DNA of 44,370 nucleotides, taken from contig JAHEHE010000014.1 of NCBI GenBank assembly GCA_024644725.1, positions 1 through 44,370 on the forward strand. The letters are read 5' to 3'. This document shows, piece by piece, positions 16,550 to 22,957 of the stretch. Every line of letters begins with the position of its first letter. Positions within the stretch are counted from its first letter, which is position 1. The translations under genes were made by a program, and so were the position numbers. Source of the stretch: Flavobacteriaceae bacterium. Lineage in GTDB: Bacteria; Bacteroidota; Bacteroidia; Flavobacteriales; Flavobacteriaceae. A model generated the notes under the pieces. The model had not been told where the DNA came from. It did not search any database and saw only the letters and a program-made list of their open reading frames with translations.

Positions 16550-17659
16550 CTAGTTTTTATCATCCTTCAGAATCGGGACCTTGTCTTCGATCATATCAAC
16601 CGGTGCACTGACTGTTTTAGGGGCTCTGAACCGATAACCAAAATAGACGCTGAATGTATATTTTTGAGGTTGGATGTTGATTTTGTCTTTGTTGAACTTC
16701 TCATTGGTCCATCTGTTTTTTATTTTTCCGCCAAAGAAGAATTTTTTACCGTTGTATCCGATTCCGGCACCGTAATCCAGGGAAGTAAAAAAGTCTTGGC
16801 CATGTCTTGTTTTCTGTTGTTCTCCAGCAGTTGTTTTCGTCTGATGCATGTCAATACCGGCACTCGGCAATGCAAAACCGTTGAGAAACCAGTTTTGGTT
16901 CATAACAAAGGTGTAATAATAGCCTCCTGTAGCTGCTAGACTCGCTCCGTAATACTCATTGAATGGATCTCGTTGCTCAATCTCTTCGCCGGGGTAAAGA
17001 ATGCGATCCAATCCAACAAGTTTGTACACATTGTATAAGACTCCTAAAACGAAAGAACCTGCGCTTTTTGTCTGAATCTCGGTCTGTGATTCTATGGCCC
17101 GAATAGAATAGTTTTCATTCCATTTATATACAGAAGTGCCGAAAAATACATTCGTGGTCATATATGGAAATTGAATGCGAACAGGTTCTGAACCCTTCAA
17201 CAGGGCGCTTGTGTTGTCCAGATAGAAGCCACGATCATAATCGTATTGAAGAAGATGCGACCAATTGTCAAAAAGAAGCTGTATTCGAAAGCGATAGGTA
17301 TCAGACTCACCTTTGTTCTCCTGATCTTCCTTGCTTGTGTTGGGCCTTAAGCCGAGACGTACACTCAGAAACTTGTAACTGAAAACAAAGGCATACCTCA
17401 AATTGAGGTTGGGTCTCAAGGTGAGGTCTGTTCCGCCATCCTCAACCGAAAACTCATTGATGTCATTACTTACTTCAAACTTGATGTTCAGCTGTTTTTT
17501 ATGGTCCTCAATATATTCGTTGAATGTTGGAAGGATAGAATCTGGCTCCGACGACACACCCGTGTCTTGGCCAAAGAACAAAAAAGGAAAAAAAAGGAAC
17601 ATGCAGATCGAGAGCAGCCAATAGTTATGATTTCTTATGCGCCGCCCCCTTCGTATCAC
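16550..17659 (-). CDS. DUF4421-like envelope protein
   Basis: A 369-residue secreted protein. After a positive N-terminus and a hydrophobic segment (about 13-30, ending FFGQD) the sequence alternates in short beta-like stretches rich in Tyr, Phe and Gly (YAFVFSYKFLSVRLG, SLDYGAGIGYNGKKFFFGG) and ends in YFGYRFRAP plus a polar tail, fitting an outer-membrane barrel. It resembles DUF4421 proteins from memory, not by search. It starts at GTG 17659 with a GTGA overlap with the AlbA_2 gene, so it is translationally coupled to that membrane protein. Confidence 0.7.
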   Translation of the reverse strand: MIRRGRRIRNHNYWLLSICMFLFFPFLFFGQDTGVSSEPDSILPTFNEYIEDHKKQLNIKFEVSNDINEFSVEDGGTDLTLRPNLNLRYAFVFSYKFLSVRLGLRPNTSKEDQENKGESDTYRFRIQLLFDNWSHLLQYDYDRGFYLDNTSALLKGSEPVRIQFPYMTTNVFFGTSVYKWNENYSIRAIESQTEIQTKSAGSFVLGVLYNVYKLVGLDRILYPGEEIEQRDPFNEYYGASLAATGGYYYTFVMNQNWFLNGFALPSAGIDMHQTKTTAGEQQKTRHGQDFFTSLDYGAGIGYNGKKFFFGGKIKNRWTNEKFNKDKINIQPQKYTFSVYFGYRFRAPKTVSAPVDMIEDKVPILKDDKN

Positions 17660-19194
17660 TTGAATCTTTTATTGATATAATCGTTTACTTCGGCCATCGA
17701 TACGATTTCCTGGGATGAATTCCCGCTCCTAACATAGAATTTTTCATCTTGTTTGCCGTTTTTGTCCTTTACTTTTAAAAATAGAGGTTCATCCCCGGAA
17801 ATGACTTTTATTTTACAAACGATCATTCCATTGGCAGCGGTTTCGAATTGTGTTCGGATGTATTTGCTAACGTATTTCACTCCCATTTCCTTGTGCAAGA
17901 GGTTCCTCAAGTGGATTTCGTAATAATCGGAGTCTTGGCGTTTCAGGCTTTGAAAGTCCTTCTCAAGTCCAATTGCATTTTTGTCATCATCTACACCGAT
18001 GAGAAGTATGCCCCCGTCGGTGTTACCAAAGGCCGCCAGCGTCTTCAGAATGACTTTTTCCAATTCTGGATTCGTCTTCTCAAGCCTGTAATCCCAACGG
18101 AGGGAGGATTTGAACTCCAGGTAGCGGTTTTCATCATCTTCCAACAATTTTTCCAGGGACGGCATATCCATGCGGTTCGGCCTGTAAAAAAATCTTTTGC
18201 GAATGGCTGTAAGAAGTATGCCCAGCACAAGCAATGCTCCCCCAATCCACAGATAAAAGCGGGATTCGGAAGCAGCCGTATACGAAGAAAGATTCTTGTT
18301 GTTAATCGTAAACAAGTAATACTTCAACCCGGACTCTTTTTCAAATCTCCGGAACGCATTCCAGTAGACATCATTTTTGAAGCTAAAATTGAAAGTTCCG
18401 GCTTGTAAGGAATCAAATCTCTTGAAATGATTCGATGAGGCCATCTCTAGACTGTCCTTATAGCTTTCTGACATGGAACTTACAGGAGTGAATTCAAGTG
18501 TTCTTCCGTCCGTTGTTTTCACTTTCAAAAGGGGTGAAAGGTTTTTTACCTTGTTTCCAAATCGCTTCATCAACCTGTCTTTGGAAAATTCCAGGACAAC
18601 AATGGATTTCGCACCGTCAGCCTCGTAGGCATAACCGCAAAAAATGGATTCTCCTTCTTCGTCCGGTAAGTTTAAATCTGTGTCTTCATTTAGGCTGAAC
18701 CAAATCGATTGGTCACTGAAACGGATTAATTTTCTATACCAGTCGCTCTTTTCCACTTCATCTTCGAAGCTTTCGTTCCAGCTGCTGATGTATTTCGAAT
18801 CTTCGAAGCGTTGCCATCGCACAACATCCATTTGTGCAGTACTGTCTACAGCGAAAACCAAGCTTGAACCATCACGGCGTCCGACAACCTTAAATCGGTG
18901 CTGAAAAAAGGCAATAGTAACCAGTTCCTCAGAATTCCTTAACTCGTTGAGGAAGAACTCCCGATTGCGAAGCGTGTCTTTAATCTGCAACGTATCACTG
19001 TAAATCTCTCGGACCCGTGACAGGTCTTTTTGGACTACACTGGTGAATCCATTGAAAATCGTATCAAAATCCTTTACGTGCTGTGCAAATGCATTTTCAG
19101 CGTAAACATTCTTATTGCTTCTCTTGGAAAAACCTAAAAAAATAAGAAGAAGCCCTGTCGCGATGAATAGAAACGCAATGATGTATTTTCTCAT
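17656..19194 (-). CDS. Membrane sensor-like protein with Schlafen AlbA_2 domain
   Basis: A 512-residue protein with membrane helices at about 4-22 and 313-331 and a 290-residue extracytoplasmic domain between them, a layout like that of sensor kinases and chemoreceptors. The cytoplasmic C-terminal domain (about 355-490) is not a kinase but an AlbA_2/Schlafen domain: RYLEFKSSLRWD, AAFGNTDGGILLIGVDDD, and FYVRSGNSSQ are its three hallmark motifs. AlbA_2 domains are linked to nucleic-acid binding or cleavage. The downstream DUF4421-like gene overlaps by 4 bases. The role is unknown; a signal received outside the membrane acting on RNA or DNA inside is inference. Confidence 0.85.
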   Translation of the reverse strand: MRKYIIAFLFIATGLLLIFLGFSKRSNKNVYAENAFAQHVKDFDTIFNGFTSVVQKDLSRVREIYSDTLQIKDTLRNREFFLNELRNSEELVTIAFFQHRFKVVGRRDGSSLVFAVDSTAQMDVVRWQRFEDSKYISSWNESFEDEVEKSDWYRKLIRFSDQSIWFSLNEDTDLNLPDEEGESIFCGYAYEADGAKSIVVLEFSKDRLMKRFGNKVKNLSPLLKVKTTDGRTLEFTPVSSMSESYKDSLEMASSNHFKRFDSLQAGTFNFSFKNDVYWNAFRRFEKESGLKYYLFTINNKNLSSYTAASESRFYLWIGGALLVLGILLTAIRKRFFYRPNRMDMPSLEKLLEDDENRYLEFKSSLRWDYRLEKTNPELEKVILKTLAAFGNTDGGILLIGVDDDKNAIGLEKDFQSLKRQDSDYYEIHLRNLLHKEMGVKYVSKYIRTQFETAANGMIVCKIKVISGDEPLFLKVKDKNGKQDEKFYVRSGNSSQEIVSMAEVNDYINKRFK

Positions 19195-19225: not shown

Positions 19226-19233
19226 CAAAATTA
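19226..19233 (-). promoter_or_regulatory. -7 promoter box of the AlbA_2/DUF4421 pair
   Basis: On the minus strand TAATTTTG matches TAnnTTTG exactly, 31 bases upstream of the ATG at 19194, so the pair appears to form its own transcription unit separate from the envelope genes upstream. No -33 TTG is visible. Confidence 0.5.
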
Positions 19234-19286: not shown

Positions 19287-20327
19287 CTAGAGTAGAAAAC
19301 GATAATTCAATGAGATTAGGAATGATTTTCGATTTCCAATGATTCCTCCTTCAGACCTGAGCATCCATCTCTTATTGAGCTGATATTGGATCCCGACGAT
19401 ACCGTTCCATTTTTGTTCGACTTGCTTGTCCATGCCATAGCGAATAATCGTGCTGCCGTCTGCCGCATCCAGACGCTCCACAATAGGTGTAAGAACCCTG
19501 TCGGCAACAATTCTTTGTGGCGGTGTTGCTTCGTTCTCGTACCAGTTGTAATAATCCTGTACAATTTCGTCACGCCTTTCCCAGGCATCTGGGGGAAGCG
19601 CGTCGATTAATTGAATCTCCCCACGTGTTTCCGAGCTCATACTGGCTCGCATGCCTCCAGCCCATATAGCAAGATTGCTATGGGGACGATTCTTGAATTC
19701 AAAGGTGTGTCCAAGCCTCACTCCCAATACATTGACCAGCACGGCCTCGTCGAGCAGTGCCGGTTTGTTCCATGTGAAATTGAAGTCTGCTGAAATCCAA
19801 ACGGGTCCTATGCCTCCGGCGCCCATAAGCCCAACTCCTGCTGTCCTTAAATCCTGATTCACAACGGACTGTAACTCGACAGGAAAGGTCAAATTCACTT
19901 CTGTATCTGAATTTCCATAACCGAAAATTCCATAAACGTTGAGAAAAGGAAATATCCAAAGATCAGGGCGCACATTTACAGAATATGAGGTATTTAAATT
20001 GTCACCAAATTCAACAAAATCAACGGGTGTCAAAGGAATGTCGAGATCGTCTGTTTTCACACCGAGCTGCAGATTGTCTATAACTATTCCTTGGCGCATC
20101 CACATATAATTGCCCATCAATCCAGCCGGGTAGGGGATGTCAAACCCTTTTGAATACGCCTGCTGACCCCAAATTGGGAAAACATAATTGTACTCCACCT
20201 GTTTGAGACTATCTGTGTAGGCCTGATATTTGTCCTTGACACGGGTCGAAGCGTATTGCTGACCTGAGACATTTGCTGTTGAACACACGAAAATCAACAG
20301 AATTACTAAGTACTTGAAACATTTCAT
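19287..20327 (-). CDS. Putative outer-membrane protein, family unknown
   Basis: A 346-residue protein with a signal peptide (MKCFKYLVILLIFVCSTANVSGQ). The mature part contains repeated amphipathic beta stretches (TSYSVNVRPDLWIFPFLNVYGIFGYG, NGIVGIQYQLNKRWMLRSE) and ends in ISLNYRFLL, typical of a barrel strand. I do not recognise a family. It starts 11 bases after the end of another barrel gene and is the last of five same-strand envelope genes. Confidence 0.72.
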   Translation of the reverse strand: MKCFKYLVILLIFVCSTANVSGQQYASTRVKDKYQAYTDSLKQVEYNYVFPIWGQQAYSKGFDIPYPAGLMGNYMWMRQGIVIDNLQLGVKTDDLDIPLTPVDFVEFGDNLNTSYSVNVRPDLWIFPFLNVYGIFGYGNSDTEVNLTFPVELQSVVNQDLRTAGVGLMGAGGIGPVWISADFNFTWNKPALLDEAVLVNVLGVRLGHTFEFKNRPHSNLAIWAGGMRASMSSETRGEIQLIDALPPDAWERRDEIVQDYYNWYENEATPPQRIVADRVLTPIVERLDAADGSTIIRYGMDKQVEQKWNGIVGIQYQLNKRWMLRSEGGIIGNRKSFLISLNYRFLL

Positions 20328-20338
20328 TGGACGGTGTG

Positions 20339-21142
20339 TTAAATTCGTTCTTCTGAAGAATTGTTCTTTTTTTCTTGTTTAGCCGCCTTTTTAGCTTTCT
20401 TCTTCTCCGCCTTCTTTTCTTTCTTTTCTGCCTTGAACTCTTTTATTTCGTCCTTTTTCTCAACACTTAGACCGATGGGAATATTGAGCTTTAGGAAAAG
20501 TGAGTTGACATTGGTGCCTGAGCGATCCTTGTAAACATTCAGAAAGCCATAATAATATCGGGCACCCAGCGTCCAACCCATTCCCTTGAGTAATCTGTAT
20601 CCGACTCCAGCTGACAATCCCATGTCAAATCGATTGATGGCATCTTTATTCTTCTCGCGGATCCTTGCCGAATTACCATCAATTTCGGAGGTGAATTCGA
20701 TATAGGCATCATACATCAATCCAAACTGCGGCCCAATTTCAGCATACATATTGTTGTCAAACTTGTATTTCGCCAAGGCGGGAACCATAAAATAACTTAT
20801 TCTTTGCCGGTATTCCCCGTCTGTATCATAGGTTGTGGCATTGAGAAATTCCAGATCAGCATCCGAGAGATCATCCAATCCGAAATTAGATTTGACCAAT
20901 ACTCCGGTATTGAGGAACCATTGCTCCTTCATTCGGATGTCAAAATAAAAGCCCAGATTGAAATTACGTGTCCAGGTATTGGACTCCATGCCAGCAATTG
21001 TAGCATAATTCAAGCCCCCATCCAGGCCGAATTCAATCTTTCCGGTGTTGAGCTTGTCTCCCAAAAGAAGTGCAATTAGCACTTGAGATTGCATCGACAA
21101 ACCCATGAACAGGAAAAGAATCAGAATTATTTTCTTTTTCAA
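20339..21142 (-). CDS. PorT-like outer-membrane beta-barrel protein with lysine-rich tail
   Basis: A protein of 267 residues if it starts at TTG 21142, which gives the signal peptide MKKKIILILFLFMGLSMQSQ and a 49-base gap to the preceding gene. A longer in-frame reading to 21310 overlaps that gene and is unlikely. The body matches outer-membrane beta-barrel (PorT/OmpW-like) proteins: FGLDGGLNYATIAG, FNLGFYFDIRMKEQWFLNTGVLVK, KYKFDNNMYAEIGPQFGLMYDAY. After the last strand comes an unusual tail of about 35 residues with alternating Lys, Ala and Glu; the tail's function is unknown. Confidence 0.75.
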   Translation of the reverse strand: MKKKIILILFLFMGLSMQSQVLIALLLGDKLNTGKIEFGLDGGLNYATIAGMESNTWTRNFNLGFYFDIRMKEQWFLNTGVLVKSNFGLDDLSDADLEFLNATTYDTDGEYRQRISYFMVPALAKYKFDNNMYAEIGPQFGLMYDAYIEFTSEIDGNSARIREKNKDAINRFDMGLSAGVGYRLLKGMGWTLGARYYYGFLNVYKDRSGTNVNSLFLKLNIPIGLSVEKKDEIKEFKAEKKEKKAEKKKAKKAAKQEKKNNSSEERI

Positions 21143-21191
21143 AATACAGATTTTTTGGAACGGGTTTGAATTTGGTGGAATGAAAAGAATC

Positions 21192-21698
21192 CTACTGAAC
21201 CTTATATCCCTTTCCTTCCATACAGGCTGAAAACGCCTTGTTGTAGTCCTGAGCCAAACGTTGTGTTTCAGCCGCCGCAGCCTGATCGTTTGCCTGTTGC
21301 TCCATTTCATCGCCCACTACTTTTGACCTTCTTCCGCGAACACCTCCGACCACAGCACCGATTGCAGCACCTTTTCCAGCATCTCCGGCGATAGCTCCGA
21401 TGGCAGCTCCGCCCGCAGCGCCAACAGCGGCTCCTCCTACGGCACTTCCATCTGCAGATCTATCAACCTCCTTTCCAACAGCTATAGTTGGATTCAAAGG
21501 ATCATATCCTGATTGTTGCTTGGCCCACTTGAAGCATTCTGCTTCATCTGCATCTTGCTGTGCTGCATCCTGTCCTTCTGATGGAAAAACATAAAGCCCC
21601 AAGCTTCTGGAAATGCTCGAACTTTGAGCTTGCATGGTGAAGACTCCAAAACTGAGGAGTACAAAGGAAAGAATACTAAAGTTTATATTTTTTTTCAT
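21192..21698 (-). CDS. Glycine-zipper envelope protein
   Basis: A 168-residue secreted protein with a signal peptide (1-24) and a central glycine/alanine repeat from about 85 to 120 with the spacing of a glycine zipper (GGAAVGAAGGAAIGAIAG, GAAIGAVVGG), followed by a charged helix and a C-terminal ACMEGKGY motif. Glycine zippers pack as helical hairpins in membranes; two cysteines, in AECFKWA and SACMEG, may pair. It resembles YMGG/YmgG-like proteins and sits between a lipoprotein and barrel genes. Confidence 0.75.
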   Translation of the reverse strand: MKKNINFSILSFVLLSFGVFTMQAQSSSISRSLGLYVFPSEGQDAAQQDADEAECFKWAKQQSGYDPLNPTIAVGKEVDRSADGSAVGGAAVGAAGGAAIGAIAGDAGKGAAIGAVVGGVRGRRSKVVGDEMEQQANDQAAAAETQRLAQDYNKAFSACMEGKGYKVQ

Positions 21699-21724
21699 TT
21701 TCTTATTGTTTGTGATATTCTAAT

Positions 21725-22216
21725 TTATAAATCAGCTGGATTAATAAAGACATAGCCTAACTGCTCCATCGCATCAGCCTCGTTGTAAAAAGTATAACTC
21801 TTTATGATTTTCCCATTTTTAATTTGGTATACCGAGTTGGTCCATAAGCGAACACGATTTTGATCTTCCTTGTAGGTAATGGTCAATTCGGCCCAGGTCG
21901 AAACCCAGTCTCCTTTTTCAGGACCATCAGTTATAGTAACTGCAATGCTATTTGATCTGTCGTAGTCAATGCTCTCATACAGGTGCTCAAAATTGATCTT
22001 AAGGGTTTCAATTACTTCAGGTTTACGAATCGAATCACCAACCGATGGTCCCAGTCCCAGGTAGTTCTCGTCCAGGACATTCTCGATCGACTCGTAGTCC
22101 AATTCTTCAACGGCCTTGACATATTTTTCAATTAAAGCCACATTGGCCTTATTGTTTTGTTGACCGCAACTGAACAAAAGAGCGGCTCCAATCAGAAGAA
22201 AGAAAAAGTGTTTCAT
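21725..22216 (-). CDS. Lipoprotein with SnoaL/NTF2-like domain
   Basis: A 163-residue lipoprotein: the lipobox LLFSC puts lipid on Cys17. The mature part fits the SnoaL/NTF2-like cone fold: helix VALIEKYVKAVEELDYESIENVLDEN, then paired strands ending VRLWTNSVYQIKNGKIIKSYTFYNE. Such proteins bind small ligands or act as accessory domains; no catalytic residue set is evident. A one-mismatch promoter box may lie near 22251 on the minus strand. Confidence 0.78.
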   Translation of the reverse strand: MKHFFFLLIGAALLFSCGQQNNKANVALIEKYVKAVEELDYESIENVLDENYLGLGPSVGDSIRKPEVIETLKINFEHLYESIDYDRSNSIAVTITDGPEKGDWVSTWAELTITYKEDQNRVRLWTNSVYQIKNGKIIKSYTFYNEADAMEQLGYVFINPADL

Positions 22217-22286
22217 GGAAAATAAATTGATTTTTAAATGATTGTCAAGGCTATGCAGCCCTGGATTTTTTGCAAGATACTAAAAA

Positions 22287-22931
22287 CTACTTTTTACTCT
22301 TGCCGAACTTCCAGTAAAAACTCAGAATAAACTGTTGATGGGAGGTATCCACATTTAGTGCTACAGGATTGTCTCCATCAATAGAATCCCCTATGAAGTC
22401 AGCTTCACTTTCCGTAAATCCTGACTCCCAGCGAACATCTGCTCCAAATCGGCCAAAGTTCAGACCGATTCCGACTTGCCCCGAAACGGTAAAATCATCA
22501 GAATCTAGATTCCGGATCTCATCCAGGGATTCTGTTGGAGACAGATCTGTATTGACAATGTATTGAAAAGAGGGGCCAAAAAAGAAGCGACCAATCCGGA
22601 GTACTCTGAATCCAAGTAAAACAGGCGCCTCAATCTTATCCATTTTAAGTCTTGTTCGCTCTCCACCACTGGAATAACTGCTTTCCGTATGCGTATAGAT
22701 CAGCTCCGGGCGTATATACAAAAAAAGAGGAAGTTTGATCTCGGCCAACAAACCCAGGTGATATCCGGTTTCTTCACCAGATCCGATTTTTGCAAAATCT
22801 GAAAAGTCTGTGGCTCGAAGATCACCGTTGGAATTGTAGTTGATACCTCCTTTGACTCCCCAATTCAAAAACTGGGCATGTCCATGGATCATCCCTGCGA
22901 AAAGAGCAACAAGAAGGATGAGTTTTTTCAT
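22287..22931 (-). CDS. PorT-family outer-membrane beta-barrel protein
   Basis: A protein of about 214 residues starting at ATG 22931 with signal peptide MKKLILLVALFAGMIHGHAQ; an upstream start at 22952 would only extend into the promoter. The barrel motifs are WGVKGGINYNS near the N-terminus, YHLGLLAEIKLPLFLYIRPELIYTH, and VSGQVGIGLNFGRFGADVRWE, and it ends FILSFYWKFGKSKK. Members of this outer_membrane_beta-barrel family (PorT/OmpW-like) are common in Bacteroidetes; a specific role in type IX secretion is not implied. Confidence 0.82.
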   Translation of the reverse strand: MKKLILLVALFAGMIHGHAQFLNWGVKGGINYNSNGDLRATDFSDFAKIGSGEETGYHLGLLAEIKLPLFLYIRPELIYTHTESSYSSGGERTRLKMDKIEAPVLLGFRVLRIGRFFFGPSFQYIVNTDLSPTESLDEIRNLDSDDFTVSGQVGIGLNFGRFGADVRWESGFTESEADFIGDSIDGDNPVALNVDTSHQQFILSFYWKFGKSKK

Positions 22932-22949
22932 TGTAAAGTGCTTTTCAAA

Positions 22950-22957
22950 CAAAAATA
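22950..22957 (-). promoter_or_regulatory. -7 promoter box of the PorT-like gene
   Basis: Minus-strand TATTTTTG matches TAnnTTTG exactly, 18 bases upstream of ATG 22931 and just outside the end of the transketolase gene. The same 10-base string, with GC in front, occurs upstream of the transketolase C-terminal gene. Confidence 0.5.

Follow-up and report, generated by a model that had tools for sequence, protein, structure and literature searches.

A conserved transmembrane receptor of Lutimonas with a predicted double-Cache sensor and a Schlafen AlbA_2 output domain

Receptor gene and conservation

The window, a 44,370-nucleotide stretch of a Flavobacteriaceae genome of the Lutimonas group, encoded a transmembrane receptor that is genuine and conserved and whose output is unusual. 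Its architecture was well supported by the open reading frame, Pfam, transmembrane helices, fold and 16 aligned orthologues. The gene (17656..19194, minus strand) encoded 512 amino acids, arranged as a short cytoplasmic start, a first transmembrane helix (residues 5–23; 19126..19182, minus strand; hydropathy 2.61), an ectodomain, a second helix (residues 313–331; 18202..18258, minus strand; hydropathy 2.25), a 22-residue linker and a Schlafen AlbA_2 domain (residues 355–496; 17707..18132, minus strand). According to hydropathy, approximately 289 residues separated the two helices. A preliminary description of this DNA had placed at the same coordinates a protein with two membrane helices, an extracytoplasmic domain of approximately 290 residues and an AlbA_2 domain in the cytoplasmic part. 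The AlbA_2 domain was identified with Pfam as SLFN_AlbA_2 (PF04326; 60.2 bits against a cut-off of 25.3, E=3.7e-16). Domains and helices both supported the reading of the protein as a membrane receptor whose sensor lies outside the cytoplasm and whose output, a Schlafen AlbA_2 domain, lies inside it. Between the second helix and AlbA_2, neither a HAMP nor a kinase domain was seen. The receptor gene was the single PF04326 gene detected in the 2.8-Mb genome, which was approximately 90% complete.

Full-length orthologues were found in 14 of 22 Lutimonas genomes and in four of six genomes of a sister genus. Some of the genomes of these two genera without a match were incomplete, and genome G619 (95% complete) also had no receptor. 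Outside the two genera, only the AlbA_2 region was matched in samples of 249 genomes of the family and 395 genomes of the order. A single-sequence scan found no relatives in genome contigs; they were recovered with a three-sequence profile. The alignment contained 16 orthologues, all matched by PF04326, of which 14 were complete and two were shortened by masking or a contig end. Since both helices were kept in all 14 complete orthologues, the loss of helices in homologues, which had been named beforehand as grounds for abandoning the earlier reading, did not apply. The mean identity among orthologues was 76% for AlbA_2 versus 39% for the sensor, and such faster evolution of the sensor than of the output would be as in known receptors.

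The dN was well below the dS in both the sensor half and the AlbA_2 half, and the gene is under purifying selection. This, together with orthologues in the isolates Lutimonas halocynthiae and L. saemankumensis, ruled out a misassembly or a spurious open reading frame. The locus was largely syntenic across Lutimonas in a housekeeping neighbourhood, and a horizontal or mobile origin was therefore rejected. Upstream of the receptor (19287-22952, minus strand), consecutive genes for outer-membrane-type beta-barrels and one for a glycine-zipper protein were observed, an arrangement that was syntenic in many Lutimonas genomes.

Sensor and output domains

The ectodomain (residues 26–308; 18271..19119, minus strand) is predicted to adopt a double-Cache (dCache) fold between the two helices. 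The AlphaFold model was computed from five sequences and had a mean pLDDT of 56, with most of the ectodomain at approximately 70 and a poor, unreliable AlbA_2 part. The top Foldseek match of the ectodomain model was 3lie (E=1.3e-6, prob 1.0), and VIA-align superposed it on 3lie_B with a Z of 13.4 and an rmsd of 4.3 over 237 residues. All 50 structures among the matches listed were Cache sensors or receptors, the best solved structures by both methods being dCache histidine kinases and chemoreceptors. Pfam Cache models gave no match in the window protein or any of the 16 orthologues, and the dCache assignment is therefore based on the predicted fold. By that measure, the dCache guess of the preliminary description, for which structure prediction and fold comparison had been proposed, was right. 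A sub-threshold match to 7TMR-DISMED2 (E=0.018) was superseded by the dCache fold match. Five ectodomain residues (R129, W139, E141, H256 and W278) were invariant in the orthologue alignment and may have ligand-related or structural functions.

Profile searches with the AlbA_2 domain reached the mammalian Schlafens SLFN8/13-type (5yd0), SLFN11, SLFN12 and SLFN14; by sequence, the nearest solved relatives were Schlafens, several of which are RNases. Residues E355, E360 and D402 matched the positions of E205, E210 and D248 in rat SLFN13, the mutation of which diminishes or abolishes cleavage (PMC5862951), with the equivalence of the two glutamates (E355-x4-E360) read from the motif spacing. The triad was invariant in all 16 orthologues. 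In some other membrane AlbA_2 types, D402 was replaced by N or K with the neighbouring D403 constant, and the claim of a triad is therefore firm only for the orthologue group of the window. Since AlbA_2 domains in general have the E-x4-E-F-K and D motifs, these alone are no proof of a nuclease. A two-lobed, pseudo-dimeric core within a single chain was not found. Because the window protein and its orthologues carried one AlbA_2 domain per chain, a Schlafen-like groove would need dimerization of the receptor. Taken as a Schlafen-type module that acts on nucleic acid, the output is probably an RNase, and RNA cleavage would be the likeliest mechanism of the receptor.

Promoter and operon

A Bacteroidota-type -7 box, TAATTTTG (19226..19233, minus strand), was present upstream of the receptor gene, as had been described for the receptor and its downstream neighbour; it started 39 nt upstream of the ATG and ended 32 nt before it. 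The consensus TAnnTTTG occurred within 150 nt upstream in nine of 14 orthologues versus approximately 1.5 expected (P ~3e-6, assuming an independence that related genomes violate), which suggests that the box is not only due to chance. In two Lutimonas genomes and two of the sister genus (L079:3765-4256, L081:8242-8736, L052:7425-7958, L053:7427-7960), the receptor was preceded at a distance of 37–54 nt by the gene of a small lipoprotein with a collagen-like GPPG segment. Their receptor genes were among the five orthologues without their own TAnnTTTG box, and the receptor may therefore be co-transcribed with the lipoprotein there.

Downstream, the GTG start (17659) of a gene with the DUF4421 domain (16550..17659, minus strand; PF14391, 139 bits against a cut-off of 32.1, E=3e-40) overlapped the receptor stop codon TGA (17658-17656) by 4 nt, the GTGA overlap of the preliminary description. 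The gene product is a predicted beta-rich outer-membrane protein; its low-confidence model was all-beta, with a pLDDT of 38 (too poor for use). DUF4421 adjoined the receptor in all 14 sensor-bearing Lutimonas genomes, and the pair was kept where other neighbours differed (L054/L088, L075, L080, L082, L083). In the sister genus, the receptor was without an adjacent DUF4421 gene in 4/4 genomes; the window's DUF4421 subtype was located away from it, beside an asparaginase/beta-aspartyl-peptidase-like gene. Elsewhere in the family, no DUF4421 locus among those examined adjoined a relative of the receptor. DUF4421 is thus an operon mate of the receptor at the level of Lutimonas and not an obligate partner. 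Of the paired system proposed earlier, for which a neighbourhood search had been suggested, the adjacency held throughout the sensor-bearing Lutimonas genomes and failed in the sister genus and at the DUF4421 loci examined in the rest of the family.

The DUF4421 of the receptor locus was a distinct subtype, well apart from a second Lutimonas paralogue. Five Lutimonas genomes were without both receptor and subtype, and three had the subtype with no receptor detected: G622 (at a contig edge), G621 (unlinked) and G630 (beside the peptidase-like gene mentioned above). The co-occurrence of receptor and subtype was significant in a Fisher test (p=0.002, uncorrected for kinship). The arrangement of the subtype beside the asparaginase/beta-aspartyl-peptidase-like gene was observed at five loci (L179, L180, L181, L182, L185) in the sister genus and one Lutimonas genome. 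An open frame of 13,534 amino acids with a DUF4421 match turned out to consist of consecutive masked N. No literature on DUF4421 was found among open-licence papers, which is a weak absence.

Proposed mechanism and alternatives

We lean towards a one-component transmembrane receptor, in which the periplasmic dCache domain would bind a small molecule and structured RNA, for example tRNA or rRNA, would be bound and most likely cut by the Schlafen AlbA_2 output. Ligand binding would cause a conformational change that is passed through the second helix and the short linker to the cytoplasmic AlbA_2. A pair of AlbA_2 domains across a receptor dimer could restore the kind of two-lobed groove that is formed within one chain in mammalian Schlafens. 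RNA cleavage would then tune translation to the outside signal. In Lutimonas, the receptor would be expressed together with the DUF4421 outer-membrane protein, which may share the response or the route of the ligand. The preliminary description had likewise suggested that a signal from the envelope acts on nucleic acid, and we infer the same.

It is possible, although rather unlikely, that the protein does not cut and is a membrane-tethered regulator, in which a ligand alters the affinity of AlbA_2 for DNA or RNA as in ToxR-like one-component regulators. The AlbA_2 domain is frequently annotated as a DNA-binding module (PMC6299218, PMC5445408), and the paired DUF4421 operon could be the regulated target. 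However, the three catalytic-type carboxylates are invariant in the 16 orthologues, as for an enzyme, and the nearest solved sequence relatives are Schlafens, of which several are RNases. The invariant triad, along with the strong purifying selection, also argues against a catalytically dead AlbA_2 that acts as a scaffold by protein contacts, for instance by sensing the state of the envelope for its operon mate. A small number of Schlafens, SLFN5 among them, are described as being without RNase activity, and partner binding by AlbA_2 may occur in other proteins; even so, we regard a scaffold as very improbable.

In a tree of 56 AlbA_2 domains, in which part of the group naming came only once the loci had been inspected and several branches were weakly supported, the window AlbA_2 group was placed beside soluble modules in DUF262/restriction-type loci (support 94/93). 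This placement would fit an effector of abortive infection against phages, which would respond to envelope damage or adsorption by stopping translation through Schlafen cleavage, and a passage of PMC12839542 cites reports of bacterial Schlafens in phage defence. Such a role appears improbable in view of the vertical, genus-wide conservation among largely syntenic housekeeping genes, the small-molecule-type dCache fold of the ectodomain and the lack of a notable defence-gene match among the neighbours. Of 10 receptor neighbours analysed with PADLOC, only the HD domain of RNase Y was matched; a defence island at the locus was rejected, as no relevant neighbours were found.

Comparison with known systems and other AlbA_2 proteins

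Bacterial membrane receptors feed kinases, chemotaxis proteins, cyclic-di-GMP enzymes, phosphatases and transcription factors. The dCache receptors, such as the histidine kinase vpHK1S-Z8 (3lie) and the chemoreceptors TlpA and PctD, share with the window receptor the order of helix, double-Cache domain and helix and the periplasmic input. Whereas their output is a kinase, MCP, GGDEF, phosphatase or HTH domain, that of the window receptor is Schlafen AlbA_2, which is not among the output classes of Cache proteins tabulated in PMC4822843. The Schlafen RNases SLFN11, SLFN13 and SLFN14 have the AlbA_2 fold family and the positions of the E, E, D triad in common with the window receptor. Unlike these two-lobed proteins, the receptor has one AlbA_2 per chain, a membrane anchor and an outside sensor. 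The AlbA_2 effector is also shared with bacterial Schlafens of phage defence and BREX-linked Schlafens; those described are soluble and encoded in defence loci, whereas the window receptor is membrane-bound in a housekeeping context. In the open-licence papers searched, the Schlafens of animals and those of bacterial defence are described as soluble effectors, and no description of a membrane- or Cache-linked Schlafen receptor was found there, a weak absence. Annotation databases may hold such architectures already.

Other proteins also carried AlbA_2 of the same general type behind varied inputs. A very similar design, with a periplasmic SBP_bac_3 sensor, one helix and the same type of AlbA_2, was encoded at three Flavobacteriaceae loci (L009:1477-2886, minus strand; L014:754-2100, plus strand; L018:1474-2820, minus strand). 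Here the sensor was a Venus flytrap in contrast to dCache, and AlbA_2 came from another branch of the tree. At L192:421-2142 (plus strand), TPR repeats and one helix preceded AlbA_2. Many proteins of approximately 260 amino acids consisted of two helices and AlbA_2 only. A cNMP-binding domain was fused to AlbA_2 at L097:1156-2046 (plus strand), L108:1483-2454 (minus strand) and L193:1492-2409 (minus strand), and these proteins are possible soluble receptors of the same kind. At L035, AlbA_2 followed a region judged receiver-like by sequence; the Pfam receiver model gave no match.

A distant family of the class was represented by a protein of 535 amino acids (L190:466-2073, plus strand) with the window receptor's order of helix, dCache-like domain, helix and AlbA_2. 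Its sensor had a sub-threshold dCache_1 match (E=8.8e-4), could not be aligned with that of the window and showed no detectable homology to it by profile. One clade of both dCache types was rejected (p-AU 0.006), and the L190 receptor was apparently fused independently. A single clade of all membrane AlbA_2 types was also rejected (p-AU 6e-5); one clade of the window, SBP and two-helix types was not (p 0.07). Separate fusions of AlbA_2 to varied inputs thus fit a switchable output domain. Given the repeated fusion to dCache, SBP_bac_3, TPR and two-helix inputs, we tentatively raise the idea, which we hold somewhat doubtful, that Schlafen-type AlbA_2 is a general output of bacterial transmembrane receptors, by which envelope signals would control tRNA or rRNA cleavage directly, without a kinase or second messenger.

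In this receptor of a marine bacterium, an outside part that looks like a common nutrient-sensing domain is joined to the catalytic residues of human antiviral Schlafen RNases inside, which suggests that RNA cutting could be switched directly. If true, an outside chemical would be linked straight to RNA cleavage, or to RNA or DNA binding, through a Schlafen-type receptor end, and Schlafen chemistry, known from antiviral immunity, would be placed in ordinary environmental sensing.

The surroundings of the other AlbA_2 genes differed by type. The SBP_bac_3 sensors of L009, L014 and L018 were each located near a pantothenate-kinase-like gene. The protein of L192 resembled Bacteroidota TPR sensor proteins in layout, except that it ended in a Schlafen domain. 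Judged by sequence, one set of two-helix AlbA_2 genes (L006, L008, L010, L012, L017) appeared recurrently beside PII-, Fur-, STAS-like and heavy-metal transport ATPase-like genes. In another set (L011, L016, L019, L020), the neighbours were a gene for a multi-helix protein and, in many cases, a UspA-like gene, these labels coming from a reading of the sequences.
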